Origin: a bacterium
Lineage (GTDB): Bacteria; JAMOTN01
DNA: 30,827 nt
Direction: 5' to 3'
NCBI GenBank assembly: GCA_027062325.1
Contig: JAMOTN010000049.1
Span: 1-30,827 of the forward strand
Shown here piece by piece: positions 1 through 22,696 of the stretch; within the stretch, counting starts at the first letter, position 1; each line of letters opens with the position of its first letter. Below the pieces are notes generated by a model that worked only from the letters and a program-made list of their open reading frames with translations, was not told the DNA's origin and made no database searches. A program made the translations under genes and the position numbers.

Positions 1-702
1 TACGATCTTCTTAGATACAGCCACTATTCCGAAAAATCCTGAATTTGCATCAGGATAAAGCGCCGATCTAAAAAATGGTCTAGTTTTTACAAGTTTTTCC
101 TCTTCATATATCGGCTCTCTATAAACAACAACTCCTGTTCTCTCGTATGAATCAAAAGAAAATCTATTGGAAGACGTAAAATCTTCAAGACTCTGTTTTA
201 ACTTCATCCAAAAGCTCTCGGCCGAATTTTCGTCATTAATTTCTGCATCACTCCCATCAATCATCTCTAATAACTCAAGCAATTCGAAAATTTTATCAAG
301 TGCTTCCATACTGACGTATTTTATTTTCTTCAGTTTTTTTTCAAGAACTCTTAAGTTAATCAAGAGATGTGAGAATCTTTCTTTTTTCCCAAAACAATAA
401 ATACTTCTATTTAAAGCTTCGCCTGCTTTGTAAAATTGGGTCCATATTGTTTCCATAAATAACCTATTTACCGGAAAGTAAAAATTGCTACCATTAAACT
501 TGAACAGATTCGTTGTAAGCAAGTTGTTACGTAATTTTGTTGCAATATCTTCACCAAACTTATTTGCCATTTCATCTACTATGAAGGAATAAAGTACATT
601 TGAGGTCACTTCTTCTTTTTCAATTGCCCAATCTTTCCCACTCTTCTGTCCAAACCTTACAGGGGTTGAAAACACTAGCTTAAAGAGATAACACTTGTAC
701 AT
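1..702 (-). CDS. csm4: Csm4-like RAMP protein of a type III CRISPR effector complex (3' part outside window)
   Basis: The reading frame starts at an ATG at 702 and stays open to the window edge (234 codons, no stop). GAGGTGAAGGTG lies just before the ATG. The N-terminus (FKLVFSTPVRFGQKSG, then SNVLYSFIVDEM) follows the Csm4/Cas5-group pattern of a first beta strand, a G-rich turn and an (S/T)xxLYSxI helix. Later FNGSNFYFPVNRL and RFSFDSYERTG...YREPIY match the Csm4 stretches 'yyfPkPl' and 'RtaiDR.tg...y....y'. In type III-A complexes Csm4 caps the crRNA 5' tag and contacts Cas10. It begins 24 bases after the cas10 stop, so both are surely one transcript. csm2 and csm3 do not lie between them, as they would in the usual order. 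Csm5 or another Cas5-group RAMP is the alternative; the missing C-terminus prevents certainty. Confidence 0.75.
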   Translation of the reverse strand, partial: MYKCYLFKLVFSTPVRFGQKSGKDWAIEKEEVTSNVLYSFIVDEMANKFGEDIATKLRNNLLTTNLFKFNGSNFYFPVNRLFMETIWTQFYKAGEALNRSIYCFGKKERFSHLLINLRVLEKKLKKIKYVSMEALDKIFELLELLEMIDGSDAEINDENSAESFWMKLKQSLEDFTSSNRFSFDSYERTGVVVYREPIYEEEKLVKTRPFFRSALYPDANSGFFGIVAVSKKIV

Positions 703-726
703 CACCTTCACCTCTGTTTTTTATTT

Positions 727-3700
727 TTATCCCCAATTTTTAAATTCCGCGTGTTCCCTTTTAATTTGTAAAGAAAAGTTGAGAAGGGATACTAAAATAC
801 TCATGTAATAATGAATTGGCATATCTTTTGAAGATTTCTCTTTCTCATCAGCCACAGTCTCTGAAACAATATAATTTTCTTCATTTAAGAGAAGATTTTC
901 CAGTAGCTTTTCAATAAATGCATGCATATACTTCATAAGTTTTTGTGCACGTTCTCCTCTCCTTTTTAAAGCACGTCCTAAAGAGTACTTCATACGATAT
1001 AACAGAAGCGCTATCTCTTTGATGACTTTATTCCGTAGAATTGCTATCTCCTCGCTAGACAACGACGAAAACATAATCGTTTTACGAAAAGTATGAATGT
1101 AATCTAAAATTTTATGGCACATTTGCAAAAATCGGTAATACCTTCCTGAAATTTCCTCCTCGGTCAAAGCCGTTTTCCAAACCACATGAGCAAAATTTTG
1201 AATATGGCGTTCATACAACTCAGAGGAAGTAAAGTAGTCAGTGTCAGCCAAAAATTTATCAACGATACTCTCCACTTCTTCTGTTCCTACAAATTTTTCG
1301 AAAGTAAACAGATCTATAACCCCAACAGAATTAGCTCCCAAATTAATTCCTAAAGGAGCATACAATCCATTCGCATTAACATAACCTGACTTATCAGTAA
1401 CAGCATAAGCAGTATTGCACTCTTTGTAGAAATAATCTTTAGCAGTTTTTTCTCCTTCCTGAGCTCTTTCGTACAATTTTCTCACAGGATAGGTTGGTTT
1501 AGCCCAGCTAAAACCTGCAGACAGAGAAAGTTTCCCTAAACTATAACCTGCAAACATTTTACTTATCAACCACCCAGCAGTTAGCACATCCTGCCACTTA
1601 CCGAGTAAAAACACGTCGTCTCCTCCTGCAAACACAACATGTAACCTTAGATCAGGTACCACTAAAAACTTTCTTAGATTTTGCAAGAAAACTGAAAACT
1701 GAGAATCATCAAACGTTTGTCGCAAGAGAAAACTCAAAATAGGAAACTCTTTAGCATCTAATCCAGCTAACCGACTAATTTCAGAACCTTTAGAAATCAA
1801 ATTTTTTAGTTCATCTAAAACCTGCTTAACTACCAATTTAAAAAAGTTTTCTAAATAACGAGAAAATGACAGGAACCCACTCAATCTACCTAAGAAAACT
1901 TTTTCGTTTGACAATCCACTTGATAGTATTCCCTCGCAAAACTCCCCAAAGTACCTCACAATAGATCCCAACGAGTTAACATCAAGTAACATTATAGCGT
2001 ACCTTGAAAAAACATTAGTGCTTGAAACAACACTTTCAGAAGCTCCTGAAACCAACACACAAAGATCAGCTATTGGCTTCTCAATTACAAGGTATGCAGA
2101 GGTCTTATCGTCATCCTCAATTTTCTTAATAGAGCCATTCCCAGCGTTATCTGGGCTATTGCTCTCATCAGCTATTTTTTGGAAACTTACAAAATCGTTG
2201 TACTTGAGAGGTACAATTAACTTTTCCTCAGATTCATCTTCTTCTATAGCTTCTTGATTCATAATTATAAACTCCCCCAAACTTTCTTTTTCCACCTCAA
2301 GGGATGTATAGTTGACTATCTCCACTCCTACTCCCAGCTCACCCACCAACATCTCTATTACATCTTGCTGAAAGTTTTTACTCCTCAATTTAACCGTAAA
2401 ACTTTTCCCTTCATTTGCAAACTCCTTCAGTCTTTTAGCAGTATTGAAAACACTTTTACACGAAAAACAAACCTCATCTTCAACATCAGAAGTAGAACAA
2501 AACTCCTTTCCACATAGCTCACAGCTGTTCACAATACAATCAAACTTAATCACATTTTCTGCAACGTAAGAAGCATAATTTTCTTCAAATAAAGGCTGTG
2601 ATTCTGATTGAAGTGATAAATCAATCAAAGATTTTGAAAATAACATTTCACTATGCGGATAAAATCTTTCAAACTCTCCATTAGCTTCACAAAACTCCCC
2701 AACCATCTTAAAAGCCCTGGCTGCTTCTATACCTTTAGAAAACGCCCACGAATATTTAAGTTCAAACCCTTTTCTTTTAAAGCTTAATAAAATTGAGTAA
2801 AGTTTATTTGAAAAAATTCTTTTCAAGCCCTCACTTACTTCATCTTCCGACTCAGCTCCCCTATAAACGAGCAAAGTCATTTTACCAGCTCCAGCCGAAA
2901 GTAGACTGCAAGGATTGTGGAGATTGGGAATAGATTGAGAGGGAAAAGTTGACATCTCAACCAACAAAACCCCTACAAGTTTTATCACCAATTCAATTAA
3001 GAAAGAGCGACTTTTTATATTCTTTAAAAATTTCTGATCAACCAAAGGAACTATGAAATTTTGAATTCCAGTTATGTCAACAACAAGTTGTCCTGCCCTC
3101 AACACAGGATTTTCAGGATTGGAAGAACCTTTGAAGTGACTAAACTTACTGTAGATCGAAGAAAGTTTCTTTAAAAGATCAGTACTTAAATTCGCAGAAG
3201 AAATTGCCTCTAAATCAAGACAAATTTTATCAATCAACTCTTTCAAATCAAATAAAAGATCCTCATGTGCAAGCAGATAATATGATATCAAAACAGATAA
3301 AGCCGCTGTACTCTTTAGATGATCGAATAAACTTATATTTACACGGCTCTCTTCTCGATCTTGATCATTGGTAAATTTACCAGAGGAACTCAAAGTAGAA
3401 TCAGAGTTATCCTCAGAACAAGCGCTAGCCTCTTTCTTGATAAGGGTGCTCACAATATTTCCCGTGAACACTTCAAGTATTGCTTCAAAAAGCCACCAAT
3501 TTTTGTAAAGATTTTTAGTTCGGTGTTTAAGCAAATTCTCAAAAAAAGTAGAATAGCTTATCTCATTTTCTATTTCATTCATTGATTTATTCACTATTTG
3601 AGGAAATGCTATAACACTTCCATTCTCAATTGGAAAAACTTTTGAACTGTGGTATTTCTTGAGATAAACAAGCAAATCATTATTCGAGGTTGAAAATTCT

Positions 3701-4200
3701 ACGCCTGGTGGAACCATGGGATCTACGAGAAAATCTCCTTGCAAAAGTTCCCTTGGAAAACTGCCAATACTTTCCCCCCTTTCCCCTGCCGATAAGTTAT
3801 CTGCTTCATAAACAATAAATGGTATTAACATCGTAAGAATCTTTAATCGTTCCTCACTGAATTCAACTTTTGAAATACTATTCCAGTATTTTTTCAAACT
3901 CTCCACTTTTACAGCAATTTTTTCAAGAGGTTCATCTTTTCTCAAAGAGTGGTGCAACAATATAGTAGCCGACACCGAATTTACTAAAGCTTCTCTCCAT
4001 TTTTCATCCAGTTCTAGCACATCCTCAAATAAATAATGAAGCTTTTGAGAAACAAATTCTGCAACTTCGCAACGGTTGTGACCTTTTTTTCTCTCCTTAA
4101 CTGTCAGTTTCCCTATATCATGCAACATTGCCGAAAAAAACAGTGCTCTACGAAAAAAGTCAACTTCAAACTCTTTTTCTATCCACTTTCTTCTCACCAC
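727..4200 (-). CDS. cas10: Cas10/Csm1: large subunit of type III CRISPR effector (HD nuclease + cyclic oligoadenylate synthase)
   Basis: Residues are numbered from a GTG at 4200, chosen because GGAGG lies 5 bases upstream; a GTG at 4212 would add four residues but has no such site. An HD domain opens the protein (MLHDIGK, H27-D28, then GHN and LLHHSL). Csm1-typical stretches follow: YEADNLSAGERG, ISLFDHLKSTAAL, and LVVDITGIQNFI at the first Palm domain. A four-cysteine zinc finger sits at about C560/C563/C578/C581 (CELC...CFSC). The second Palm has DVNSLG and then FAGGDDVFLLG, with GGDD at about 859-862. So both ssDNase and cOA-synthase sites look intact. At about 1157 residues it is well above the roughly 750-850 usual for Csm1. 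The extra length includes two Ser/Asp/Glu-rich inserts, one before ISLFDH and one after the zinc finger (EAIEEDESEEK, then NSPDNAGNGS). Arginine codons are mostly AGA/AGG. Confidence 0.93.
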   Translation of the reverse strand: MVRRKWIEKEFEVDFFRRALFFSAMLHDIGKLTVKERKKGHNRCEVAEFVSQKLHYLFEDVLELDEKWREALVNSVSATILLHHSLRKDEPLEKIAVKVESLKKYWNSISKVEFSEERLKILTMLIPFIVYEADNLSAGERGESIGSFPRELLQGDFLVDPMVPPGVEFSTSNNDLLVYLKKYHSSKVFPIENGSVIAFPQIVNKSMNEIENEISYSTFFENLLKHRTKNLYKNWWLFEAILEVFTGNIVSTLIKKEASACSEDNSDSTLSSSGKFTNDQDREESRVNISLFDHLKSTAALSVLISYYLLAHEDLLFDLKELIDKICLDLEAISSANLSTDLLKKLSSIYSKFSHFKGSSNPENPVLRAGQLVVDITGIQNFIVPLVDQKFLKNIKSRSFLIELVIKLVGVLLVEMSTFPSQSIPNLHNPCSLLSAGAGKMTLLVYRGAESEDEVSEGLKRIFSNKLYSILLSFKRKGFELKYSWAFSKGIEAARAFKMVGEFCEANGEFERFYPHSEMLFSKSLIDLSLQSESQPLFEENYASYVAENVIKFDCIVNSCELCGKEFCSTSDVEDEVCFSCKSVFNTAKRLKEFANEGKSFTVKLRSKNFQQDVIEMLVGELGVGVEIVNYTSLEVEKESLGEFIIMNQEAIEEDESEEKLIVPLKYNDFVSFQKIADESNSPDNAGNGSIKKIEDDDKTSAYLVIEKPIADLCVLVSGASESVVSSTNVFSRYAIMLLDVNSLGSIVRYFGEFCEGILSSGLSNEKVFLGRLSGFLSFSRYLENFFKLVVKQVLDELKNLISKGSEISRLAGLDAKEFPILSFLLRQTFDDSQFSVFLQNLRKFLVVPDLRLHVVFAGGDDVFLLGKWQDVLTAGWLISKMFAGYSLGKLSLSAGFSWAKPTYPVRKLYERAQEGEKTAKDYFYKECNTAYAVTDKSGYVNANGLYAPLGINLGANSVGVIDLFTFEKFVGTEEVESIVDKFLADTDYFTSSELYERHIQNFAHVVWKTALTEEEISGRYYRFLQMCHKILDYIHTFRKTIMFSSLSSEEIAILRNKVIKEIALLLYRMKYSLGRALKRRGERAQKLMKYMHAFIEKLLENLLLNEENYIVSETVADEKEKSSKDMPIHYYMSILVSLLNFSLQIKREHAEFKNWG

Positions 4201-4249
4201 ATATCCCTCCACTAATTCAGTATCTTAGTACTCTCTTAAATTCATCCCT

Positions 4250-4286
4250 ATTATATAAGTTGTCACTTTCTTTCAAAACGTGACAA
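4250..4286 (-). promoter_or_regulatory. cas operon promoter with an inverted repeat (candidate operator)
   Basis: On the minus strand a perfect TATAAT (4250-4255) lies about 50 bases before the cas10 start. The best -35 at 16-17 bp is poor (TTTTGA, 4273-4278). A 7-bp perfect inverted repeat, TTGTCAC / GTGACAA (4280-4286 and 4260-4266, 13-base centre), occupies the -35 to -10 interval. It extends by three further pairs if one base is bulged. The placement suits a repressor that blocks RNA polymerase. The regulator is not in the window. The promoter call is fairly firm; the operator role is inference. Confidence 0.55.
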
Positions 4287-4360
4287 GCTTCAAACACCAA
4301 TAATTCAACTACCAACAGATACACTACTACTAACAAAGCAAGATCAACTACTTTATAATT

Positions 4361-5464
4361 CTAAATTTTACCACTTTGATTTATTTCTTCAAACCACTCG
4401 AAACATTTCCAATAAGTTGAGAAGTAGCGAGTGGATAGGGGCCAATCACTACCAAAAAGCAAGCGTTTTCTTTCAACGTTTTCAAGAAATTCGGTGAGTT
4501 CACGCATAGTAGAAGGTGAATTTTTAAAGTAAAATGTGGCTGATAAATCAATCCAGAATTGACGTTGAAATGGACGATAAAACCTCATTTCAAATTCTCT
4601 AATCTTGTGGGAACAAACGTGGCAAATCACAAAATCATCGGGGTTTAGCAAAGCAACAGGCGCGAAATTCTTTCCTCGCTCAATCACATCATACAAATGC
4701 TCTTCTGACTTTAATTTATCAACTTTTTCTGAATAAAACTCTTTTATTCTAAAATAAGAGGCTAATACCTCCAAGAACTCGAATGAGTAATCCCCAAAAT
4801 CACCCCAAGTGAAGCAGTCAACAAAAAATTTGACATTTTTAAATCCCTGCTTTTTAGCATACTCCTTCAACTTTTCAAGCTTTTCAATAACTTCAAGAAA
4901 ATATGAATATATATCTACTTCTTTAAGGAAATTTACCAAACTTGAGGCAATCCCTCCACACTTTTGCTCTCTTCTGCCAAGCTGCCTTTCCACTGCTCCT
5001 TTCAGCTTTTCTTCAACCATCAAGCGTGGATGCACCTTAAAGAAGGCTACCTTAAACTTTTCATTCGCCGTGTTTCTGAAAAAAGAAGCAAGTTCTTCAT
5101 CCACTTTAAGCAAGCTGACCGGCAAAGTCACAAATAGATATTTACCTTCCTCTTTTGAACTAGTAGCTGCAAATTTCGATAGAACGTCGGGTCCTATTCT
5201 TTCATACCATAAATTGAATTCATCCTCTGTGTTGAGAATCAGATTCATTCCAAGCCATTTAGAAAACCAGCTGTTAAATGAGCTTTCATTTCTAGAAAAA
5301 AATATACTGTTTACAAATTTTATAAATTCTCTTCCTTCATCTTCTACATTACCCAAGTGAACGTGCCAATCTACAAAGCCTTTTCTAAAAGCAAAATCAA
5401 TGCCTTTCTCTTTATCCTCAGTAACATTCCTCCAAAGTTCCCTCAATAAATTATCAAACTGCAT
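4361..5464 (-). CDS. Amidohydrolase-2 family (COG2159-like) metal-dependent hydrolase/decarboxylase/hydratase
   Basis: A TIM-barrel metallohydrolase of 367 residues. The strand-1 metal motif HxH is FVDWHVHLG (H34, H36). A later histidine pair lies in VICHVCSHK, and the strand-8 aspartate is in LLFGSDWPLS (D340), the typical FGSDWP signature of the amidohydrolase-2 group. That group includes aminocarboxymuconate-semialdehyde decarboxylase, LigI-type pyrone hydrolases and LigJ-type hydratases. The substrate cannot be read from sequence. It is the last gene of a minus-strand run, 23 bases after the RraA-like gene, so the two probably act on one pathway. The middle region carries a charged helical insert. 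No signal peptide is present, so it should be cytoplasmic. No clear terminator follows before the cas promoter. Confidence 0.75.
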   Translation of the reverse strand: MQFDNLLRELWRNVTEDKEKGIDFAFRKGFVDWHVHLGNVEDEGREFIKFVNSIFFSRNESSFNSWFSKWLGMNLILNTEDEFNLWYERIGPDVLSKFAATSSKEEGKYLFVTLPVSLLKVDEELASFFRNTANEKFKVAFFKVHPRLMVEEKLKGAVERQLGRREQKCGGIASSLVNFLKEVDIYSYFLEVIEKLEKLKEYAKKQGFKNVKFFVDCFTWGDFGDYSFEFLEVLASYFRIKEFYSEKVDKLKSEEHLYDVIERGKNFAPVALLNPDDFVICHVCSHKIREFEMRFYRPFQRQFWIDLSATFYFKNSPSTMRELTEFLENVERKRLLFGSDWPLSTRYFSTYWKCFEWFEEINQSGKI

Positions 5465-5487
5465 CGTTATTCACTCCAAGTGGAACT

Positions 5488-6222
5488 TCAATCGTTTATT
5501 TTTTCCTTCAACTTTTCCAATTCTCTAGCCAAACCTGTTAAATCCAGTATTTTATCATCGTAAAGATAACGCTTTAAACATACTGTCTCATACGTAGAAA
5601 GTTTTAAAGTATCAACACAGTAATACCACATATCTTCCTGCTTTTCTATAAACTCAAGGCGTCTTAGCAATTTAGGAGTAATATCTTCTTTCGAGATAAA
5701 AACAACTCCCGTATCATCACAAACCATTATTCCACCATGATAACGCTCTCTATCTTTCTCTCCTTCAGGATGCACTGCACGATCAACTTTTTTGTTGAAG
5801 CAACCAACAGGTGAAAAACCGCGCACCCACAACTTGTAATTTGCAGCCTTAAATCGATGCGCATCCCTCAAATTTCCATCAACCACAACCGCTTCAGCCT
5901 GCCTGTAAAGTAACAGATACTTCGATACTAAATCACCAAAAAGTGCCCGTTCATTACACCCATATTCTTTTACAAAAACTATGCATCCCTCAGGAACACT
6001 TTCGAGTTGCTTATGTAGATACCAGTTAGTTTCATCATGAGCATAGGCAAAAAACACCTCTCCAACACAGTGGAAACCACTGTTTACAGCTTTTACCCCT
6101 GGAATTACTCCTTTTTTCCCAAGAGCATCCGCAACTTCTGTGGTAGAGACACGATTCCTTCTTATATAATCTATGATCTGCCTCTTCAAGACCTCCAATT
6201 TTTCTCTAGCTACATCATTCAT
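5488..6222 (-). CDS. RraA-fold aldolase-like protein (RraA / HMG aldolase family, COG0684)
   Basis: At 244 residues it has the family layout. STTEVADALGKKGVIPGVKAV is close to the 'st..vaDAlgk.gv..gikp' opening. The GCNERALFGDL loop corresponds to GxxxAxxGel, and VVDGNLRDA contains the Arg-Asp pair (R119, D120) that binds pyruvate carboxylate and metal in HMG/CHA aldolases. GGIMVCDDTGVVFIS matches the closing 'GD.v.gD.dGVvvvp' strand. Known members are class II pyruvate aldolases, oxaloacetate decarboxylases or the RNase E inhibitor RraA. The metabolic neighbours favour a C-C lyase. The ATG at 6222 is preceded by a pure G6 tract with a 7-base spacer. The C-terminal 60 residues (YYCVDTLKLSTYETVCLKRYL) go beyond the core domain and are not recognised. 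Confidence 0.72.
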   Translation of the reverse strand: MNDVAREKLEVLKRQIIDYIRRNRVSTTEVADALGKKGVIPGVKAVNSGFHCVGEVFFAYAHDETNWYLHKQLESVPEGCIVFVKEYGCNERALFGDLVSKYLLLYRQAEAVVVDGNLRDAHRFKAANYKLWVRGFSPVGCFNKKVDRAVHPEGEKDRERYHGGIMVCDDTGVVFISKEDITPKLLRRLEFIEKQEDMWYYCVDTLKLSTYETVCLKRYLYDDKILDLTGLARELEKLKEKIND

Positions 6223-6271
6223 TTTTTATCCCCCCAGTCACTTTATGAAAATACCTAGTCAATACCACATT

Positions 6272-7597
6272 CTATTCATATTCAATCTTCACAGAATTAT
6301 ATACTTCGTCTATCTTATTAGAGAGCTCATCATAATCAGAAGCAAATACTATAAAGTAACCATGACGCTTAGTATCATCTTCAACTACTTTAAGCTCATC
6401 TCCCCTAGAGAAATTTAACCCCCACATGTAACATAACTTTTCAACAGTCGGCTCGACAAGCACTCTCTTGACAACTCCCGGTTCAAAATCAAAGAAACGA
6501 AGCGCAGCACATTTACCAAAAGGAAAAACTTTTTTTACTTCCATCTCAAACCTTTTTCTGTCCAATAGATACCAAACCTGTGCCATCTCGTAATCGAATC
6601 TGCAAACTTGAGGAACAATGTCAGAAGCTATAAAGTGTCCTCCGCCCCGTAAAGCAAAATCTATGAGTTTCAGAGAAGTTTTTGCCCTTGGAAAGTTGCC
6701 ATCAGGCTTACCCAACTTAAATTCCAAGTGGACCAAAGCATAAGGAACTTCCCATTTAGAAATAAAATCAGCCTTTGGGTACCTTTCAGCAATATCTGCC
6801 TCAGGAAGTTTCAAAACTTTCTCAATAAATTCTTTCACCTCTTTTTTTTGCGACTCCGTGAGAAAATCATAGTAATCAAGACCAATAGCAACTGCTTTAT
6901 TACGCGCAGAATGTTGTTTTTTCGAAGTAGCAAGGATTGTAAACTCATCATTTAAAACAAATCCCTCAATTGTTATCTCATCCCCACTTTCAAAACTCTC
7001 AACCAACACCACTTTTTGACGTGAAAATAGAAAGGCATTCTCAACGCTCTGAGAAATTCTTCTCTCAAAAGCCTCTAAAGAGACAAATTGAGCACTGTCT
7101 AAAATCTCAACTCCCCGTGACCCTTGATTATCCGATGGTTTTACCACAATTTTTAAATGGTTATTAAAAAAGTTTATGGCTAAAACATTTACTGTTCTTC
7201 TCCAATTGTTCTCAAATAACTCAATGAAAAAGCGTGGATTAAATTCTGGAGCAGTAAGTGCCACTCTTCTTCTCACAATATGCTTTAAACGTACCTGTCT
7301 TGCTACCAAGCAAGGAACGTGGAAATTGCCAAGCTCCTCTGCCACGCACGAGGCAACCTTTTGCCCTATATCAGACTGAGTTGAAAAAATATGCGAACAA
7401 TTAAGTTCTTTCAAAATTTGCAAAATCATCCTTTCATCATCAAAGCCAAAAAACTCATCAGCTAATTCTCGGCAATGTGCTCTATTATTTCCATCAAACC
7501 CAATGATGCGAAATTCTCCTTCTGCTCTTAGTTTTTCAATGAATCTTTTTTGGCTAAATCCCATTGGAAAAACTGCTACTGGTATAACGTTTCCCAT
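6272..7597 (-). CDS. ATP-grasp ligase of unknown substrate (L-amino-acid-ligase-like architecture)
   Basis: A 441-residue protein with an N-terminal pre-ATP-grasp Rossmann-like domain (VIPVAVFPMGFSQ, IIGFDGNN, HIFSTQSDIG). The ATP-grasp core follows: VVKPSDNQGSRGVEI (K153) is the first nucleotide-binding strand and glycine loop, VLVESFESGDEITIEGF is the adenine-side strand, and LRGGGHFIASDIVP (R317) is the Mg/phosphate region. The C-terminal part (GYFIVFASDYDELSNKIDEV) resembles the small closing domain of amino-acid ligases. Such enzymes activate a carboxylate as acyl phosphate and join it to an amine or thiol; the partner is unknown. It heads a minus-strand run with the RraA-like gene (49 bases away) and the amidohydrolase. 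GAGGTG lies 10 bases before the ATG. Confidence 0.78.
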   Translation of the reverse strand: MGNVIPVAVFPMGFSQKRFIEKLRAEGEFRIIGFDGNNRAHCRELADEFFGFDDERMILQILKELNCSHIFSTQSDIGQKVASCVAEELGNFHVPCLVARQVRLKHIVRRRVALTAPEFNPRFFIELFENNWRRTVNVLAINFFNNHLKIVVKPSDNQGSRGVEILDSAQFVSLEAFERRISQSVENAFLFSRQKVVLVESFESGDEITIEGFVLNDEFTILATSKKQHSARNKAVAIGLDYYDFLTESQKKEVKEFIEKVLKLPEADIAERYPKADFISKWEVPYALVHLEFKLGKPDGNFPRAKTSLKLIDFALRGGGHFIASDIVPQVCRFDYEMAQVWYLLDRKRFEMEVKKVFPFGKCAALRFFDFEPGVVKRVLVEPTVEKLCYMWGLNFSRGDELKVVEDDTKRHGYFIVFASDYDELSNKIDEVYNSVKIEYE

Positions 7598-7647
7598 AAA
7601 TAAGCTTCACCTCATCAAGCCAAACACTACAACATTAATTTAGGCTT

Positions 7648-7656
7648 TGTTATAAT
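7648..7656 (+). promoter_or_regulatory. Extended -10 promoter for the gspF-ileS run
   Basis: TGT followed by a perfect TATAAT (7651-7656) forms a TGn extended -10 element, which compensates for a weak -35 (ACAACA, 16 bp upstream). Transcription would begin near 7663, giving a leader of about 50 bases. The Shine-Dalgarno GGAGGGTGAG precedes the ATG at 7716. The site lies in the divergent gap between the ATP-grasp gene (minus) and gspF (plus). Confidence 0.6.
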
Positions 7657-7715
7657 TTAACAAAAATGCCTTAATTATTTTACGCAATCTCACAATTTCA
7701 ACGGAGGGTGAGTAA

Positions 7716-8933
7716 ATGCCCGAGTTTTCTTATAAAGTTAGAACACCTGCTGGAGCAGAGCTTACAGGTACGATTGAAGCAGAAAACGAACAAGAAGCTA
7801 AACAAAAGCTTGAAAGCAAGAATTATACTGTTCTAGAATTGAAGAAACTTCCTGAATACACATGGGAAGAACTGCTTAGCCGCAACAACCGTCCTATTAC
7901 CACAAAGGACTTAATGCTTTTTACAAAGCACCTTGCTGTTCTTGTTAAGGCAGGAATCCCTGTCGTTAAAGCACTGCAAATTCTTGAAAAACAAATTGAA
8001 AATATTCGTCTTCGCAAAAAGATCAAGAAAATTCGCATGTACGTTGAAGAAGGAAATACACTTGCCAATGCTTTTGCACGTTTCCCCGAAACTTTTGATA
8101 ATCTATTTTGCAACTTGATCAAAGTTGGTGAAGAAAGTGGTTTGCTGTACGAGATGCTTACACGTCTTAATGCCTATATTGAAAAAAGTGCACGTATTAA
8201 AGGAAAAGTCAAATCAGCAATGGTTTATCCCATAGTAGTTATGACTATTGCAACAGGTGTCGTAACATTCTTGATGATATTTGTTATCCCCCGTTTTCAA
8301 AAGATGTTTGCATCTTTTGGCGGAGATCTACCCGGTCCAACAAAAGTTGTCATCGCAATATCCAACTTTTTAAAGAGTAAATGGTATATCATATTCGGTA
8401 CAATCGTATTCCTCATATTCCTGTTCAAAAAGTTCAAAAGCACTCCAACAGGAAAAGTTTTATGGGACAAATTCGTGCTGAAGTTGCCTTTATTCGGTGA
8501 TCTGGTTGTCAAGTACTCAATGAGTCAGCTTACTGGAAACCTAGCAGTTCTTTTGAGAAGTGGCATATCCATATCGCGTGCTCTTGCCATAATAATTGAA
8601 TCGGTTGATAATGAAATAGTTAAGAAGGAATTTCAACAAATAAAGGAAGACATAGAAGCTGGACGTGCTATTGGAGAAGCTTTTGAACGCTCAGAAGTTG
8701 TGCCTGTGCTGGTTGCTCAAATGGTGGCTGTTGGTGATCAAACTGGAACACTGGAAAGCATGTTGGAAGAGGTAAGTATTTACTTTGAGGAAGAAGTTGA
8801 TAATATAGTTGAGGCTTTGATGAGTCTTATTGAGCCAATCATGATAGTCTTTCTTGGAACCATTGTTGCAGGTATTCTCATAGCCATGTTCTTGCCAATA
8901 TTCAAAATGGCCAAACTTGCTGGAAAGGCTTAA
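7716..8933 (+). CDS. Type II secretion / type IV pilus inner-membrane platform protein, GspF/PilC family
   Basis: At 405 residues it has the full family length. It opens with FSYKVRTPAGAELTGTIEAE, the usual GspF/PilC start. Two T2SSF repeats follow, the first including KDLMLFTKHLAVLVKAGIPVV and NLIKVGEESG, the second including YSMSQLTGNLAVLLRSGISI and QMVAVGDQTG. Three hydrophobic segments are visible at about 168-192, 222-240 and 376-398. The protein sits in the inner membrane and couples the assembly ATPase to the growing pilus or pseudopilus. No GspE/PilB, GspG-type pilin or secretin gene is next to it, so it is an orphan here. The only assembly-related neighbour is the PilX/GspK-like gene about 4 kb away on the other strand. 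pilC and gspF cannot be told apart. Confidence 0.92.
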   Translation: MPEFSYKVRTPAGAELTGTIEAENEQEAKQKLESKNYTVLELKKLPEYTWEELLSRNNRPITTKDLMLFTKHLAVLVKAGIPVVKALQILEKQIENIRLRKKIKKIRMYVEEGNTLANAFARFPETFDNLFCNLIKVGEESGLLYEMLTRLNAYIEKSARIKGKVKSAMVYPIVVMTIATGVVTFLMIFVIPRFQKMFASFGGDLPGPTKVVIAISNFLKSKWYIIFGTIVFLIFLFKKFKSTPTGKVLWDKFVLKLPLFGDLVVKYSMSQLTGNLAVLLRSGISISRALAIIIESVDNEIVKKEFQQIKEDIEAGRAIGEAFERSEVVPVLVAQMVAVGDQTGTLESMLEEVSIYFEEEVDNIVEALMSLIEPIMIVFLGTIVAGILIAMFLPIFKMAKLAGKA

Positions 8934-8955
8934 ACCTTATAAAGGAGGGGCTTTT

Positions 8956-11900
8956 ATGCAACAGATGCAAAAGGACGAAAAGCAAACTCAAAAATCACAA
9001 GTTGCTCTTCGAGAAGAAGCTATAATGAATTTTTGGCGTGAAAATAAAATTTTCAATAAAGTGCTGGAAAAACGCCGCAATGAGGGGGCACCACTCTTTT
9101 CCTTTTTTGAGGGGCCTCCCACTGCAAACGGTATGCCGCATGCTGGGCACGTGTTAACCCGTGCAATGAAAGATGTATTCATTCGTTATCGCGAAATGAC
9201 AGGGCATTATGTACCAAGAATTGCTGGTTGGGATACCCACGGACTTCCCGTAGAACTTGAAGTTGAAAAAATGCTGGGTCTTAACAATAAGCGTGATATA
9301 GAAAATTACGGAGTTGAAAAGTTCATCCAAAAGTGCAAAGAGAGCGTCTGGAAGTACAAAACTGAGTGGGAAAAAATGACCGAAAGAATTGGGATGTGGT
9401 TAGACTTTGAACATGCTTATATAACTTATGATAATCGCTACATTGAATCGCTGTGGTGGGCATTGAAAAAGTACTGGGAAGCTGGACTTCTTTACGAAGG
9501 ATTCAAAATTGTCCCATACTGCCCCCGCTGTGGGACCGCACTCTCTTCTCATGAAGTAGCACAAGGTTATAAGGAGGTAAAAGAACCTGCCATATACGTA
9601 AAGTTTAAAGTAAAGGGGCGTAATAACACTTATTTTATGGCTTGGACAACTACTCCTTGGACTCTTCCTTCAAATGTGGCATTGGCTGTAAATCCAGATG
9701 TTACTTACGTTGAGGTTGAGCATCGCGGTGAAACTTTGATTTTGTGCAAAGACAGACTTTCTATACTTGAAGGCAATTACAATGTGATTCGTGAGTTTAA
9801 AGGAAAAGAGCTTGAATATACGGAGTATGAACCACTTTTCAACTTTGCTAATCCAGACAAAAAATGTTGGTACGTTGTGTGTGCAGAGTTTGTATCCACA
9901 GAAGACGGTACAGGAATCGTTCACATAGCACCTGCTTTTGGTGAAGAAGACTGGAACGTTGGAAAAGAATACGATTTACCTATGGTAAACCTTGTAGATC
10001 TTCAGGGACGTTTTGTAGAGGGAACTACTTGGGCTGGTAAATTTGTAAAAGATGCAGATCCAGAAATAACAAAGGAGCTTCAAAATCGAGGACTTCTCTA
10101 TAAAGTAGAGGAATACACGCACACCTATCCATTCTGTTGGCGTTGCTCTACGCCCCTCCTTTACTACGCAATGAAAACGTGGTTCATAAAAACAACTGAA
10201 TACAAGGACAAGATGATGGAGATAAATCGGAATATAAATTGGTATCCAGAATATATACGCGAGGGGCGCTTTGGGGAGTTTTTGGAAAACAACATCGATT
10301 GGGCGCTGAGTCGCTCTCGATATTGGGGGACACCTTTACCCGTTTGGACTTGTTCTTCTTGTGGGCACCGCGAGTGCATCGGTAGTGTAGATGAACTCAA
10401 GAGTATGGCAAAGGAATGGCCTGAAGGGGAGCTTGATCTCCATAAACCGTGGATCGACAAAGTAATATTAAAATGTCCGAAGTGCAGTGGAGATATGAAA
10501 CGCGAGCCAGAAGTTATTGATTGCTGGTTTGACTCTGGTTGTATGCACACAGCGCAATTTCATTATCCTTTTGAAAATAAAGAAGACTTTGAAAAGAGAT
10601 TCCCTGCTGATTTTATATGCGAAGCAATCGATCAAACACGTGGGTGGTTTTACACACTTCTTGCTACGAGTGCTTTCTTGTATGGTAAGAGTGCTTACAA
10701 AAATGTTGTAACATTGGGACTTATACTTGGTTCAGATGGACAGAAAATGAGTAAAAGTCGCGGCAATTACGTGCCTCCAGATGAGGTGTTTGATACAGAA
10801 GGAGCAGATGCTGTTCGCTGGTATTTTTACTCATCAACTGTACCATGGAATGCTCGTATATTCTCAAAAGAGCATGTTCGCGAAGCGAATCGTAAATTTC
10901 TAAACAAGATAAGAAACGTAGTCAAGTTTTTCAAAATGTACGCAGACATAGATAAAATAAATCCATTCGACTTTGAGTTCAAAATTTCCTCACTTCCTAT
11001 GATCGATCGCTGGATTTGGGCGCGTTTCGCAGAAACAGTAAAAAATGTGCGCGAAAATATGGACAAGTTCAACGTCACAGATGCAGCGCAAAATATTGAG
11101 AAGTTTTTAGACGATTTAAGCAACTGGTATGTTAGACGCTGCCGTCGTCGTTTTTGGCGTGAGGTCGTGGACGAGGACAAGAAAAAAGCTTACTTTACCC
11201 TTCACAGAATTCTCGTTGAGTTCACCAAACTAATTGCTCCTTTTGTGCCGTTTATAGCAGAAGAGATGTACGAGGAACTTGTTAAAAATTACGGCAAGGG
11301 ACAGATTAGTATCCATTTAGAAGATTATCCTACTTATCAAGAAGAACTGGTTGACAAAGATCTTCTTCACCGCATGGATTTCTTACGCTTGCTGGTTGAA
11401 CTTACACGTGAAGCACGTGGTAAGGCAAAGATAAAGGTGAGGCAACCAATTCCTGCAATATACGTGTGGGCCAAAGATGAAGTTGCACTTTCTGAAGAAG
11501 AACTTTCTCTTATTCTTGAAGAGATAAATGCCAAAGGAGTAGAACTCAAGGATAAAAGCTGGTTTAATAACAAAGTCACATTCCGCCTAACCGTTAATAA
11601 AGCAAAGCTTGGCCCAATTCTTGGATCCGGAATAGTTGAGCTTTCAAACTTGGTAAACGAGAAGCGTGATGAGATCGGTTGGCAGTTAATAGATAAGGGA
11701 ACATTTGAATCTGAAATAGATGGACGCTCACTACTTCTGGAACTTGGAGATATAAAACTTGAAGTTGAGGGTATAGAGCCGTTTTTTGCTGCTGGAAGAA
11801 GGAACATTGTGGTTGCTATATCGAGTGATATTCCCGAAGAACTAGTTGTGGAGGGACTCGCAAGGGAGCTAACACATCATATTCAGAACATGCGCAAAAA

Positions 11901-13124: not shown

Positions 13125-14840
13125 TTATCCGGCTTTAAATTCAATCCAGCGGTGAGTAGGCTTTGCATACAGCACTACCCAACTTATTTCTCTCCTGAAA
13201 CGTGAATCGTAGTTGATGAATACTATGCGTGGCATGTAAAATTTTCCCTTATTATCGTACCTATTTAACTTTTGGACTACCAAGTTACCATAAATGTTTA
13301 GTCTAATTCTACCGCGTATGCTGTTTTTAGAGTATATGCTAGCTTTTATACTTCCTGCATCACGAATCAGCCTTATGCCATCTCTCACTACAAGTACCAT
13401 AGCAGAAGACGGATCAGCAGGTTTCAAGTCTCCAATGTAAGCATTATCCACACAGAGCACGCCCTTCCCTGAATAGTAACCATCTAATACCGCATCTCCC
13501 TTGACATATATAAATCCATCAATTTGAAATGGCTCATTAAAGGAACCCCTCAACTCTATATCTCCATTCACGCGCACATCCGCATTCTGCGGACTCAAAT
13601 AGGTAATAAGATTACGAGGATCAAACTCATCTGGATGCTTCACAGGATAGTTTTTAAAAGTAGTCCAAGGAGTGTAAAGATCATGACGTGGCATCATATA
13701 CTTTTCTATTGGTCCCGAAAGATTTGCATAAACTGGTGGCAGCACGTAATAGTACTTGAATATCTTACCCTCATAGCGTGTTGCCCAATACATAAATCGG
13801 TCATGCAAACGATTATGACAACCTATGTAACCAACTTCTGGCTTATCCCAACGTGGATCTTTTACAAAGTAATTTATTATGTCATCTATGTCAAAAAACG
13901 GCAAATACACATCTAACTCACCGTTGGTTCTAACTCTCCCTGACTTCAAATATGCTTTAAATATCAAACTCATATCCTCTTCTTCTTTTACTTGAGGCTT
14001 AATCTTAGCCAGCAAATTTCTTATAACTATTAACTTATCGTGCAATGTGGCTGCTTTAGGAAGCTGGGACATTATCATATTTATGTATTCTTGCCTTATA
14101 GGAGCAACGCGACTCATTCCATTAGAAACTATGAAAGTACCATACTTTAATACATCACGCTGAGTCCCAGCTATAAATAAAACGTACTTTGGGGCAACCG
14201 GTTGTAAAGCTCTAACACTAACTGGTTTATAAAGTGAAAATTTAAAATTATAGCGTTTTTCCCACAGATGAATCTGAGTAACAGCTACCGCCCGGTATCC
14301 TGCAAGCGGCATCTTCTTCGTCGCATATACTCTTATTGCATCCGGGTAAAGATCAACACGCTTTTTCAACATCCACTTGACAGCGAATTCAGATTCCGGC
14401 TTAGTGTAATTAAAACTGACTTTTGTTTTAAGGTGCCAAGCCATATCCACCTCCTCAGTCTCATATGTCCAATGAACAACTCTGTGAAGATCCACAATAT
14501 TTAAAAACTCCTCAAGCTCTGCAGCCTCTCTTGAAAATGGAACTTTAAATTTCTCATATGAAGTATTTGCAACACGAGATATCTTTTTCTTTATATCACT
14601 CAAAGCCACCTCTTCCCAGCCAAGTGCCAACCAATAAGCCTGCAACTTTGCAACGTCGCGTAACACAAAGTTGAGTTGTGATTGCCAACTTCCGGTTACA
14701 AACGATATAACAAGAGTCATAATAGCAGTTGAAAGCAAAACAAAAAGTAATATACTTCCTCGCCTGTTGTTAAAATTTATCTTCACAACAGAAGCACTTT
14801 CTCCCCAAAAACTGTCATTTTCTCTCAATCGATGCTCCAT
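13125..14840 (-). CDS. PilX/GspK-like type IV pilin-family protein
   Basis: Near the N-terminus, NNRRG is followed by SILLFVLLSTAIMTLVISF, an arrangement like a prepilin leader plus pilin helix. The helix lacks Glu at position 5, as in GspK. QAYWLALGWEEVALSDI recalls the 'A..lA.aG.e.A' region of PilX/GspK proteins. The C-terminal half has short beta repeats (VNGDIELRGSFNEPFQIDGF, IYVKGDAVLDGYYSGKG) of the type seen in large PilX-like proteins. The start is uncertain. ATG 14840 overlaps the preceding gene by 26 bases and GTG 14849 by 35. GTG 14786 would give a compact leader (MKINFNNRRG) with no overlap, but its GGGGAG is 14 bases away. It could be a minor pseudopilin working with the GspF-like protein. 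Confidence 0.6.
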   Translation of the reverse strand: MEHRLRENDSFWGESASVVKINFNNRRGSILLFVLLSTAIMTLVISFVTGSWQSQLNFVLRDVAKLQAYWLALGWEEVALSDIKKKISRVANTSYEKFKVPFSREAAELEEFLNIVDLHRVVHWTYETEEVDMAWHLKTKVSFNYTKPESEFAVKWMLKKRVDLYPDAIRVYATKKMPLAGYRAVAVTQIHLWEKRYNFKFSLYKPVSVRALQPVAPKYVLFIAGTQRDVLKYGTFIVSNGMSRVAPIRQEYINMIMSQLPKAATLHDKLIVIRNLLAKIKPQVKEEEDMSLIFKAYLKSGRVRTNGELDVYLPFFDIDDIINYFVKDPRWDKPEVGYIGCHNRLHDRFMYWATRYEGKIFKYYYVLPPVYANLSGPIEKYMMPRHDLYTPWTTFKNYPVKHPDEFDPRNLITYLSPQNADVRVNGDIELRGSFNEPFQIDGFIYVKGDAVLDGYYSGKGVLCVDNAYIGDLKPADPSSAMVLVVRDGIRLIRDAGSIKASIYSKNSIRGRIRLNIYGNLVVQKLNRYDNKGKFYMPRIVFINYDSRFRREISWVVLYAKPTHRWIEFKAG

Positions 14841-15369
14841 TTGATGCACCCGCTGATTTTAAAAGATCTTCCCCATCTTTGGCATTCGCCGCACTCTTGC
14901 TCTCACTCCAATGTATCAAAACCATAGAGATTCTAACGAGAATAAAACCTGAAACAAATCCTATTATAGAAAGTATTCCATACTTATACGCTCCAAACAC
15001 AAGCAAAAGAGCAACCACAACAAGCCTAAACATTGCCTGTGCCCGTGCTTTTTTAGGACTCATCAAACCAAGCGTTACTCGTTCAACACTCCACGAAAGA
15101 AGCACAATTTCAATAATTGAAATTCCAAAACCTGCTATCAAACCTCGTATTAATCTCTTTGAGTCAATACAGGATCTTATATCACACGGCAACAACATAA
15201 AAAGTGTTAGCAACACAGCAAATGCAACAACGGCTCCAACTACAGTTTTAAACAAAAAAATCTGATAACGCTTCATAGCCGAACGCAAATCTGAATTAAG
15301 GATGCTCTCTTCGCTATTCTCGCTTCTTGATTCGACTTTTTCATCAATTAAATCACTACTATTTTCCAC
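14815..15369 (-). CDS. Small four-helix membrane protein, AtpI-like (tentative)
   Basis: About 184 residues: a charged, Ser/Glu-rich N-terminus, four hydrophobic helices (FLFKTVVGAVVAFAVLLTLF, GLIAGFGISIIEIVLLSW, LVVVALLLVFGAYKYG, IIGFVSGFILVRISMVLI) and a short polar tail. The spacing and the 'R..A...f........Y......i.GF..GF......' pattern recall ATP synthase protein I (AtpI/UncI), but no ATP synthase genes are nearby, so the name is only a resemblance. GTG 15369 is preferred: a G6 tract lies 7 bases upstream, as for several other genes here. A TTG at 15384 has no such site. It lies between the GH114-like lipoprotein gene (stop at 15394) and the PilX-like gene, in the same orientation. Confidence 0.5.
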   Translation of the reverse strand: MENSSDLIDEKVESRSENSEESILNSDLRSAMKRYQIFLFKTVVGAVVAFAVLLTLFMLLPCDIRSCIDSKRLIRGLIAGFGISIIEIVLLSWSVERVTLGLMSPKKARAQAMFRLVVVALLLVFGAYKYGILSIIGFVSGFILVRISMVLIHWSESKSAANAKDGEDLLKSAGASNGASIERK

Positions 15370-15393
15370 ACTCCTACCCCCCAAACATTAAAG

Positions 15394-16347
15394 CTACTTA
15401 ACCAAGTTTACTATGAAATCTATCTTATTCAAAGCTCTATCTTTATACGCTGCATAAGGAATAAAACCGTATTCCCTACATTTACTTACAAAATTCGTAA
15501 TGCGATTTGCATTGTCACCTGTAAATCCACTTCCATCATCAACGTAATCAATAACAAGTACTGGTTTTCCAACCTCTTTAACACGAAAAAGATAATTTAA
15601 GCGCTCTGCTATATAATCAGATGCATTCTCCTGCAATTCTGTGTAAAACAGATCCTCTACTGCCCATCCATCAATCACTTTCAACAAATCAGCCGAGTAA
15701 TCAAGAATCCTTTCAGCATTTTGTATAACAACTATAAAATTTTTCTTTCTTGCCCTTACATAATCTGCAATTCTCTTCACAAAATTTACCATCTCAACCG
15801 CATACCAACTTTCAGGAGTAGCACTTTCCTTATCAGCCCAAAATTCAAACTCATCAACTTTATCAAGATAAACTCCATCAAATCCTTCGTCAATTATCCT
15901 ATCAAGGTATCCTAGAATCAATCTCTGCCAATCCTCGTACCAGTAACGCACAGCATAATTCCCTGGCCACTCAGAATTTTCTTCCCCTAGCCAATCAGGT
16001 GGATTTTCATCCCAAGCAGTATTCCAATAATATCGGTAATTTTCAGCTTCTCCAATTGATAGGTAGGACAGTAATATTTTGCCATAAAGCTTCATCTTGT
16101 ACATCTCTACAGAGGTAAACTCTCCATCCTCTGTCCCATCCTTTGAGTAATCCAAAACTCCTAAATCAAATTCAGCAGTAGATACAGTAAGCGGATCAAT
16201 GTTCTGCAACCAGCAAAACCAACTTGATACACGAGACAGCGGGGGGCTATCGTTATCATCACACCCCCCCAATGTAAATGCTACAACAATAAAAGCTCCC
16301 ACTACTATTATAAGTAGCTTATGAAATATATTAAATTTTTTCAGCAT
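15394..16347 (-). CDS. Lipoprotein of the GH114 / TM1410 endo-alpha-1,4-polygalactosaminidase-like family
   Basis: A signal peptide (KLLIIVVGAFIVVAF) ends in a lipobox TLGG-C (C29), so the mature protein should be lipid-anchored. The body matches GH114/TM1410-like TIM barrels: LLSYLSIGEAENYRYYW, PDWLGEENSEWPGNYAVRYW, DRIIDEGFDGVYLDKVDEFEFW, and later FIVVIQNAE, DGWAVEDLFY and VLVIDYVD. The acidic residues in SIGEAE and YLDKVDE are the likely active-site region. Characterised relatives cleave galactosamine-containing polysaccharides; the substrate here is unknown. AGGAG precedes the ATG by about 10 bases. A G7 run encodes the lipobox glycines and a C6 run follows 17 bases later. The gene is 58 bases after a chemoreceptor on the same strand. 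Confidence 0.8.
   Translation of the reverse strand: MLKKFNIFHKLLIIVVGAFIVVAFTLGGCDDNDSPPLSRVSSWFCWLQNIDPLTVSTAEFDLGVLDYSKDGTEDGEFTSVEMYKMKLYGKILLSYLSIGEAENYRYYWNTAWDENPPDWLGEENSEWPGNYAVRYWYEDWQRLILGYLDRIIDEGFDGVYLDKVDEFEFWADKESATPESWYAVEMVNFVKRIADYVRARKKNFIVVIQNAERILDYSADLLKVIDGWAVEDLFYTELQENASDYIAERLNYLFRVKEVGKPVLVIDYVDDGSGFTGDNANRITNFVSKCREYGFIPYAAYKDRALNKIDFIVNLVK
16241..16270 (-). repeat. G7/C6 homopolymer pair able to form a GC hairpin inside the lipoprotein gene
   Basis: On the minus strand, seven G (16270-16264) at codons 26-28 are followed after 17 bases by six C (16246-16241), allowing a stem of 6 G-C pairs. The stem lies in coding sequence at the lipobox and the first mature residues. 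The runs stand out in such AT-rich DNA. Slippage in the G7 run would shift the frame right after the signal peptide. Confidence 0.6.
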
Positions 16348-16405: not shown

Positions 16406-18358
16406 TTACATCCTTTCTGTCAATTCTTTAGCTTTCTCAGTTATATTCTCCTGTCTCTTCACTTCATCCACAAGTATTTTTATGTACTCCTGACGTAACT
16501 TCTCAATTCCCACTTGTATTTCTGTAATAGCAGCCTTAATCTTCTCAACAGCCAAACTTTCCTCCTCAGTTACATTCTTAATCTTACCCAAATTACGTGA
16601 AAGTTGTGATGTGAATCTCAATAACTGTTCAAGATCAGCACTAACTCCATTTATTATACTCATTTGATCTTGCAGAATTTTATCAGTATTTTCTATTCTA
16701 GCTGACAACTCTTCTACAACTTCAACAAGATGTATGATAACACTCTTAATTTCGTTACTCTCCTTATGAGTACGCTCACTCAAGTTCCTTATCTCCTCTG
16801 CAACAACTGCAAATCCCCTGCCGCTCTCACCAGCACGCGCAGCCTCAATTGCAGCATTCAAAGCAAGGAGGTTCGTTTTTTCTGCAATGCTACTAACTAT
16901 CTCAACAAAGCCTTTAACTTTATTAACAATATCCTCCACCTTTCCCATAAAAGAACTTACCATCTGAAAACTATCTCCAACATTCGTAGAAACACTAACT
17001 AATTTAGCAACAGCCTCTTGACCACTCGAAGCAACTTCTGCCATTTTCATAGCTTCATCTCTTATAGCATTTGCTTCTTGAGCAACCATACGACTTGTAG
17101 TTGACGTCTCCTCAACAGCACTACTAATTTCAGTAACATCTTTTGTTAGATTATCAGCGTACTTTCTAAGCTTTTCAACGATGTCTACAATTGCAGAGGT
17201 AGAAACCGATAACTCTTGGGACTCTGAAATAAATTCCTTCTTGATTTTTCCTATAATCCAGCTCATAAACAACCAAATAATTATCAAAATAATCATTGAG
17301 ATAATAAAAACTTGATTAGCAATCTTATTAAGCATTTCTTTAAGAAACTTATTAACTTTTAAACTTATTCCACTAGCCTTAACATTTATAGGCTTCAAAT
17401 ACAATCCAGAACACAAGACCCAATTAAGACGCGGTATATAAACTGCATAGGAAAGTTTCTTCTCCAAATTATTTGTAACAGGATCCGTGTAGGCGTATTC
17501 TACAAAGACTGCCCCCTTTGCCATCGCTCCTTCAATTAACATTTTTCTGTAAGGAACACCTCTTGGATCCTTCTTATTAACATCAACAAGCTTACCAGAT
17601 AAACTGGGCTTAGGATGAAAAAACATTACAACTTTGTTGGGCCACTGAGATACGTCATAAATCCAGAAATATCCGCGGCCTCCTTCAAAGCGCCACCCTT
17701 CAAGAGCTGTTTTGAACTTCTCCTTAAAATCACTCATTACATCATCAATGTAAGCACCAGTTCCAACTATCCAGCCCCACTCTCTCAAAACAAAAAACAA
17801 ACTCATCTTTTTCTCTTTTCTTCCAGTTTTAGGGTGTGGCCAATAGTATATAGCATAATCCAAACCTTTTTTAGCATTGTCAACAATGAGCTTTATTACC
17901 TCAACATTTTTTAGATTTTTACCCTCAAGCTGTGGCTTTATTGGATGCGCAACCATTACGTAATTCATATCAATTATAAAAAAGTAGCCATTACCATTGT
18001 CATAACGGCACGACTTTACAACAGCCTTTACCATTTTCTTCTTCTCTTCATCAGTTAAAGTCTCATCTTGTATTATACGCGATAACATAACCTTGACACT
18101 TTCAAGAATTTGCCCAATCTTTTTTCTAGTAACCTCTTCAAAATTGCTACTGCTAAGCTGAGATTCGATATACTTCTTACCGTTCTCAACAAAGTCTTGC
18201 AACACCTCTTTGTAAGTATCAATTAAAACTTGACGTTGTAACTCATCACTTCTTTTAAGAACTTCTTTTCCCAATTTTTCAACCACTAAATAAGAAAAAA
18301 AACCAAAAGCACCAACTAAAAGCACAACCGACAGCACTAACAAAGTAGTGTATTTCAT
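16406..18358 (-). CDS. Methyl-accepting chemotaxis protein with tandem Cache sensor domains
   Basis: A 650-residue transmembrane receptor: TM1 at about 5-26, a periplasmic sensor, TM2 at about 346-369, then a cytoplasmic coiled coil. The sensor holds two Cache_2-like units. The first has [17 protein letters not shown] and [17 protein letters not shown]; the second has [21 protein letters not shown] and [13 protein letters not shown]. Such domains often bind small organic acids. The signalling tip is canonical ([18 protein letters not shown], then [14 protein letters not shown]; about 490-525). No clear HAMP domain separates TM2 from the coiled coil. The C-terminus (KAKELTERM) has no CheR-tethering pentapeptide. 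The ATG at 18358 has a G6 tract 6 bases upstream. No che genes are in the window. Confidence 0.93.
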
Positions 18359-20578: not shown

Positions 20579-22687
20579 CTATGCTCTATTTATCCTCAAC
20601 GTCTCCTCCACTCTGTCAATAAGTTTTCTCAATTCCTTTACAACGCTTGCAATCATTTTCATTGCCTCAACAATTTCGTCTATTGCATGTACAATATTTT
20701 CCATAACTTGATTAGTCTCCTCAGCTGCTGCAGAAACTTCCTGAGAATGTTGCACCATCTCACTTGTAGTTTGTGCTTGCTCTTCCACCGCTGCTGCAAT
20801 CTCTTCTGCCACCGTCTTAACTCGATTTATAACTTCTTTAACTGCATCAAATTCACCTTTAACATTGGCTGCTTCTCCTCTTATTTCTTCAAGTATAGAC
20901 TTTATCTCTTCGACTCCTTTTATCGTTCTATCCGCAAGGCTCTTTATCTCCTGAGCAACAACTGCAAATCCACGTCCTGCTTCTCCTGCTCGAGCTGCTT
21001 CAATTGAAGCATTGAGGGCTAGCAGGTTAGTCTTGTCTGCAATTCCAATAATAAGATCATTTATCTCCTCTATCTTGTCTATCTTGGAACGCAGCTTCTC
21101 CAGTGCATTTTCAGCTTCTGAGGCAACCCCTTCTGCTTCACTCGCTACCTCATTTGCCGTTTGAGTATTTGCGGCTATAGTCTCTATACTGGCTTTCATC
21201 TCCTCAAGCGCTGTAACCACGGAAATTATGGAGGTAGTTGTTCTATTCATAGCCTCTCTGACTTCAGATATCTGTGTCTTCGTGTGATCTGTCGTCTGTT
21301 TCAACTCCTCAGAGCTTGTTACCAGATTTTCAACTTCTGTTGATATATTCCTTGCCTCTCTCACAAACTCAGCAAAAATTGAGGCTAACCCCACACTTTT
21401 TGTGAAGACATAACTTGCAAGCCAAGCCATAAATACAGCGATTACAAGAATTAGCAGAAGAGTCTTTAATAATTCTTTTATCGCTTTGGCTTTAATATAT
21501 CTTACTGGAGTATAAGCAACAACATACCAGTCCACATTCTTCATGATCTTGTGAACTGCTACTATAAGTTCCTCTTTCAAATCACTAAAACTGAAAACCC
21601 TCCCTATAGCATTCCCCTTAACTTCTGCTTCCTTAAGAACAGGAATAATAGAAGTCCATTTAGTTGCCTCTCCTTTATTCATAGAATAATTATTACCACA
21701 TATAACAACCCCATTTTTGTCAATCAAAGCAAAATTTATCAGTTCTGTAAAGGTCCCTTTAGCAATCTCCCCAATCGACTTATCAACAATTAACTTTTCA
21801 AACTTTTTAAAAGGAACCACTAAAATCAAAGTCCCGACAAATTCATTCGTATTCAGTGAAAAAATTGGAGTCCCAACTAATAAAATCGGCTCACCATAAA
21901 TATTATCTTCATTTAAATACTCTTCTACTTCTACCATCCCTTCCCTTCTATGAGCAGCGACTCTCCTGAATAATTTAGAAATTGGACTATTAAGCCACAA
22001 AGGAGAGGTTAAATTCTGCCCTAAGATAGGACTCTTTGCCACATCATACAGTACTATTCCATCTTTATTCACTAATATCCCATCCTTTATATGCTCAGAC
22101 TTAAAGACAAAAGAAAATTGCTCGTGCCATCTCCTATAAACCTTCTCATAACTCAGTGAAAGATTACTCCCTTCAAATTTCCACTTATCTTTGAAAGCAT
22201 AGGAGTTATTATCAGGATGGATAAACAACCAATGAAGAATTTTTCCTTCCAGAGAATCAGGAATCAACATCTGCATATCCATAGATTCAAAAAACTTATC
22301 CCCAGCATAATAGCTTTTCAATCGCGAAACCAAAGCTTCTGCAGGTGGAAAATTGTGCTTTTCTATCAAATTCTCCCACTCTTTCTTTAAATTCCAAAAA
22401 GCATTTTCAAAATCTTCTAATGCTCTGGATGACAAAACAGCCAAACTCAATGCTGTATTTTTGTAACCTTTTACCATTTCACGAAAAGCATCCTTTTTCC
22501 AAGTAGCCTCAACATTAAGAGCTTCAGCTAAAGTATTTACATTAAATTTATACGAAAAATACATCACCATAAGTTGAGACAATAGGGCTGTAAGAATTAT
22601 AGAAATGAAAACTATAAGTTGAACTTTATGTGTGATCCTCATCTTGGCTTTGGGGCGATTCAGGCTGCGAGCCTCAATCTCACCCAC
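20579..22687 (-). CDS. Methyl-accepting chemotaxis protein with large dCache-like sensor
   Basis: About 702 residues. TM1 lies near 22-43 ([20 protein letters not shown]), followed by a periplasmic region of some 360 residues, TM2 near 405-430 ([20 protein letters not shown]) and a coiled coil. The sensor contains [43 protein letters not shown] and [16 protein letters not shown], which fit a double-Cache fold. The signalling tip is intact ([37 protein letters not shown], about 550-585). A HAMP domain is not obvious. The start chosen is GTG 22687, which has a G6 tract 8 bases upstream; the GTG at 22696 overlaps that tract. A 3' terminator is present. The ligand is unknown and differs from that of the first receptor in this window, since the sensors do not resemble each other. 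Confidence 0.92.
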
Positions 22688-22696
22688 TTTTTTCAC

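Follow-up and report, generated by a model that had tools for sequence, protein, structure and literature searches.

Layout of the three-gene locus

The window analysed here, the whole 30,827-nucleotide stretch of the bacterial contig JAMOTN010000049.1, carries three enzyme genes that follow each other on the minus strand and may form a joint pathway. They encode an ATP-grasp ligase of 441 AA (6272..7597), an RraA-like protein of 244 AA (5488..6222) and a 367-AA hydrolase of the Amidohydro_2 family (4361..5464). All three are intact open reading frames with an ATG start, separated by 49 bases between the ligase and RraA-like genes and by 23 bases between the RraA-like and hydrolase genes. Immediately 5′ of the start of the RraA-like gene lies a G-rich, ribosome-binding-like stretch (GGGGGG). 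The open reading frames and Pfam matches bear out a previous reading of the locus made from the sequence alone (the sequence-only reading), which had named these three families, their common strand and the two gaps.

Between the ligase gene and a divergent T2SSF/pilC-type gene (7716-8933) lies the region 7598..7715, upstream of both; on the minus strand it is a likely operon start, judged from consensus matches only. It contains a promoter-like TTGAAA-16-AATAAT element at 7701-7674, likewise a consensus match only, and a perfect palindrome, TTTGTTA-N5-TAACAAA, at 7646-7664. At the other end of the array, a 148-base gap (4213..4360, minus strand) separates the hydrolase gene from cas10 and holds a TATAAT box and a perfect inverted repeat, TTGTCAC-N13-GTGACAA, at 4260-4286. 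The two inverted repeats bracket the trio and each is the sole exact copy in the window; arms resembling either of them at up to three mismatches are expected by chance, and a site scan found no excess of promoter- or terminator-like sites over shuffled sequence. As the three genes share a strand and such short gaps, with promoter-like elements before the first and after the last of them, the trio looks like a single transcription unit whose promoter side faces the pilC-type gene, and cas10 would begin the next one. To judge from its sequence, the 148-base gap is probably a separate promoter/operator for cas10, and we place cas10 outside the putative trio operon.

The RraA-like protein and its relation to LigK

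The RraA-like protein gave the clearest of the three family calls (PF03737, 67 bits against a cut-off of 24.5, E 2.8e-18). One of the two diagnostic motifs of RraA-like aldolases is D-X20-R-D; this exact pattern is absent from the window protein, in which the spacing is D-X21-R-D. The protein keeps the G-D loop and the DGxxRD motif (D97, R119, D120), and these three residues align with metal-/enolate-binding residues of the HMG/CHA aldolase 3noj. The arginine aligned with R119 is essential in HMG/CHA aldolase (PMC5065237). The RraA fold is not confined to aldolases: one enzyme with it acts as a dehydratase/decarboxylase on a keto-sugar acid (PMC8563752), so that the reaction of the window protein cannot be named from its fold.

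With LigK, the HMG/CHA aldolase/oxaloacetate decarboxylase (PDB 3noj), the window protein has in common the fold family, the G-D loop and the R-D pair, but it is only about 25% identical, has an extra residue separating the D from the R-D pair and carries a 45-residue C-terminal tail. One alternative reading is a small catabolic route in which the RraA-like protein and the hydrolase would act like LigK and LigJ in degrading a keto- or hydroxy-dicarboxylate, and the ligase would make a storage or export conjugate. We regard such a route as unlikely. The RraA-like protein scored far below the cut-offs of two LigK models (52.6 vs. 179 bits and 44.2 vs. 304.5 bits), the hydrolase matched no LigJ model, and no dioxygenase, transporter or regulator was recognised around the trio. 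The genes annotated in the window, over all its 30.8 kb, include no pathway partner of the LigJ/LigK kind (ring-cleavage dioxygenase, LigI/LigJ). The remark of the sequence-only reading that nothing suggests aromatic degradation is thus upheld by the low LigK scores and by the lack of any LigJ-type or aromatic-ring gene among the scanned window genes; aromatic degradation is unlikely, and involvement in CRISPR (see below) still less likely.

The ATP-grasp ligase and the contexts of its relatives

The ligase passed the curated cut-off of ATP-grasp_4 (PF13535) only barely, with 27.9 against 27 bits. A LAL_C2 match over residues 367-441 covered the full length of the domain with 27.5 bits, below the cut-off of 29.4. 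The lysine and the acidic metal ligands are kept, the conserved residues being K153, E292, D313 and R317; D313 stands where 80 of the 88 aligned rows have Glu, the remaining eight having Asp. The order of ATP-grasp_4 and LAL_C2 is that of L-amino acid ligases of the BL00235/BacD type (PDB 3vot, 3vmm), from which the window ligase differs by about 17 extra residues inside its core and by its sub-cut-off LAL_C2. By sequence, no PDB chain matched it even at E 0.1. Its predicted model is of low confidence (mean predicted local distance difference test score, pLDDT, 52.6), and the top Foldseek matches, 4dim followed by 3vot at rank 2, serve as a hint only.

Several of the stronger ligase relatives adjoin genes for NeuB, PseG-like, DegT aminotransferase, Gfo/Idh, KduI/IolB-family or polysaccharide proteins. 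Others are fused to a flavin mononucleotide (FMN)-dependent hydroxy-acid dehydrogenase domain, and some of these fusions have an aminotransferase gene next to them. These contexts (sugar genes, aminotransferases, hydroxy-acid dehydrogenase) point to small-acid/amine metabolism. Together with the ATP-grasp_4 match and the near-cut-off LAL_C2, they lead us to favour ligation of a small acid to an amine for the window enzyme. In the loci examined, the ligase family occurs in glycan and hydroxy-acid contexts, without RraA or Cas10. Fusions of an ATP-grasp/LAL_C2 ligase with an FMN-dependent dehydrogenase were read in loci L126 (6112-8346) and L128 (6404-8638), some such fusions lying beside a class I/II aminotransferase gene, and a marker search gave further ones in L127, L130-L133, L137-L140 and L142.

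The Amidohydro_2 hydrolase

The hydrolase, a divergent member of its family, also lies barely above the cut-off (PF04909, 28.2 vs. 26.4 bits), and the alignment covers residues 270-346 only. It keeps HxH (34/36), KxH (143/145), H282, D306 and the D340 of GSD340. It shares this HxH, KxH, H, D pattern, along with a DLS-T ... FGSD segment, with the Amidohydro_2 metal-dependent hydrolases/decarboxylases. Compared with family members, the 367-residue window protein has insertions and shows no aligned counterpart of the metal-position histidine of strand 5. The latter was present in 14 of the 15 proteins compared and unaligned in the window hydrolase in all three alignments, in which the middle part of the protein aligns unreliably. 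As this histidine was not found, the metal site may be unusual. A structure prediction from the single sequence reached a mean pLDDT of 37.

A ligase-hydrolase pair in a jumbo phage contig

A relative of the ligase adjoins an Amidohydro_2 gene in one further place, the 222 kb contig IMGVR_UViG_3300021964_009390 of an uncultured jumbo phage from IMG/VR (L039). There the ligase gene (7854-8912) and the hydrolase gene (8896-9648) overlap by 17 bases and are part of a glycan gene cluster (4437-9648) with WbqC, a PIG-L deacetylase and glycosyltransferases of families 10 and 25, a cluster which probably serves surface-glycan modification. The phage and window loci have the same two families side by side, their ligases share the motif LIDFA-RGGG--IAS, and neither hydrolase shows an aligned strand-5 histidine, the phage protein having Asp at this position. 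They differ in that the phage locus has no RraA gene and sits among glycan genes, and in that the ligases are only about 22-29% identical. The two hydrolases match each other weakly (E 2.3e-6 and 7e-5), and that of the phage is nearer to ordinary amidohydrolases than that of the window. A grouping of both ligases into one subfamily by the shared motif was considered and rejected, since the ligase tree did not support it and Asp at the D313 position occurs in 8/88 rows.

Searches of phage records with the L039 ligase and hydrolase gave no matches, and none of the 16 genome loci with L039-like amidohydrolases contained a related ligase. With one case in 73 loci examined for such pairs, the adjacency could be due to chance, and we treat the phage pair as a lead, not as proof. 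That the ligase and hydrolase of the two loci are an undescribed unit attaching and removing or trimming an amide-linked group, with the RraA-like enzyme supplying its acid in the window lineage, seems to us a fairly improbable reading.

The phage cluster also bears on the idea of surface-glycan decoration, in which the other two enzymes would make or trim a small acid and the ligase would attach it to an amino sugar. Besides the phage pair itself, glycan markers were seen in 19 of 71 ligase loci vs. 2 of 19 control loci; as the markers were partly picked from those same loci this count is biased, and the enrichment of ligase relatives in glycan clusters is suggestive only. In the window no glycan marker was found, and the sole sugar gene, encoding a UDP-GlcNAc 2-epimerase, is 20 kb away. 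We hold glycan decoration to be very unlikely for the trio.

A candidate joint pathway and the search for a second trio

All three enzyme families are known, and nowhere else in the searched data did they occur in this combination; the genes lie in a compact order on one strand, and most of the catalytic residues are conserved. The reading we lean towards, with rather less than even confidence, is that they are one operon of metabolic enzymes acting in a joint pathway, so far seen in this lineage only. In this reading the genes would be co-transcribed and their products would act on one molecule. The RraA-like enzyme would most likely make or break a small keto acid through metal-dependent retro-aldol cleavage or decarboxylation, and the hydrolase would most likely open or trim the same small molecule. 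The ligase would most likely convert a small carboxylic acid to an acyl phosphate and join it to an amine, which may be an amino acid or an amino sugar. Such a pathway would be a compact, undescribed route tying keto-acid chemistry to amide-bond formation in a lineage without close relatives among those compared, and orphans of three large families would gain a function from it.

Several results weigh against the joint pathway. The predicted models of the hydrolase and ligase (pLDDT 37 and 52.6) are too poor to show the active sites; the ligase tree does not group the window and phage ligases; and the glycan/sugar-biosynthesis markers of the chosen set are absent from the window. A second trio was not found in 386 spread bacterial genomes. 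Three loci with ligases of 25-27% identity, recovered when about 85,000 species genomes were scanned with a ligase alignment, had neither RraA nor Amidohydro_2 genes. In the 73 ligase-relative loci checked (60 stretches from a wider profile search plus earlier ones), RraA was found near the ligase in none and Amidohydro_2 in one, that of the phage.

In the 386 genomes, relatives at E 1e-8 were found for the RraA-like protein in six and for the ligase in three, and the hydrolase had none in other genomes at E 1e-3. Scans of viral contigs with each window protein, which reach close kin only, gave no matches, and neither did a plasmid search with the hydrolase. The ligase gave ten distant plasmid matches; six of the neighbourhoods were examined and proved to be sugar, arsenic/arsinothricin-resistance or other clusters, none of which contained an RraA or amidohydrolase gene. 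A literature search on the three families together returned nothing relevant.

The window's genome has no relative among the compared genomes closer than the same domain, and single-protein scans reach close relatives only, missing diverged ones; for these reasons the absence of a second trio carries limited weight. Of the joint pathway proposed by the sequence-only reading, the families and the operon-like layout stand, whereas a conserved pathway found no support in the neighbourhood search: as far as the searches reached, the trio is adjacent only in this genome, which in a lineage with no close relatives is weak evidence.

The same absence of conserved co-occurrence everywhere searched is what one would expect of a chance operon, that is, housekeeping or scavenging enzymes, three in number and unrelated to one another, whose genes became neighbours in a small compact genome and which work each alone. 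Related ligases, RraA proteins and amidohydrolases do lie elsewhere in unrelated neighbourhoods, and we take this ordinary explanation as a real though doubtful possibility. It fits less well with the operon-like spacing of all three genes, with the complementary chemistry of the enzymes and with the overlapping ligase and hydrolase genes of the phage locus.

The neighbouring type III CRISPR locus

Downstream of the trio, the next gene encodes a Cas10/Csm1 protein with an HD domain and a GGDD palm (727-4212, minus strand). Beyond it on the same strand, a csm4-like gene of the same type III CRISPR locus runs off the contig end. This cas10-csm4 locus (1-4212), which the sequence-only reading did not mention, is divergent and gives the genome a second CRISPR locus of type III. 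As the trio lies directly upstream of cas10 on the same strand, it might be an accessory operon of the CRISPR system, for instance one that produces or uses up a signalling or toxic metabolite. We consider this highly improbable, since 148 bases holding an inverted repeat and a separate promoter-like site divide the trio from cas10, and since none of the three proteins matched any PADLOC family. Moreover, the other type III locus of the genome is without the trio genes, Cas10 stood beside the ligase family in 0/71 loci, and a literature search found no link of ATP-grasp with type III CRISPR ancillary genes.

The other type III locus, on contig C25 of the window's genome G000 (17000-36900; L038 5347-13087), is fuller. 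As read from translations, csm5-, csm3- and csm2-like genes share one strand, and the opposite strand carries cas6-, cas10-, csm4- and csm3-like genes, with no HD domain seen in the cas10-like one.

Other genes of the window

On the far side of the divergent pilC-type gene, two open reading frames lie at 13125-15384, which together with that gene (start at 7716) may be part of a type II secretion or pilus set; one of the two weakly matches a GspK/ComGG-like pseudopilin. The gene at 15394-16347 encodes a putative GH114 glycoside hydrolase of the MJ1477/TM1410 family (331 bits). Finally, three chemoreceptor-type genes (16406-18358, 20579-22696 and 30256-30825) occur within 15 kb, with uvrB and uvrA lying among them.
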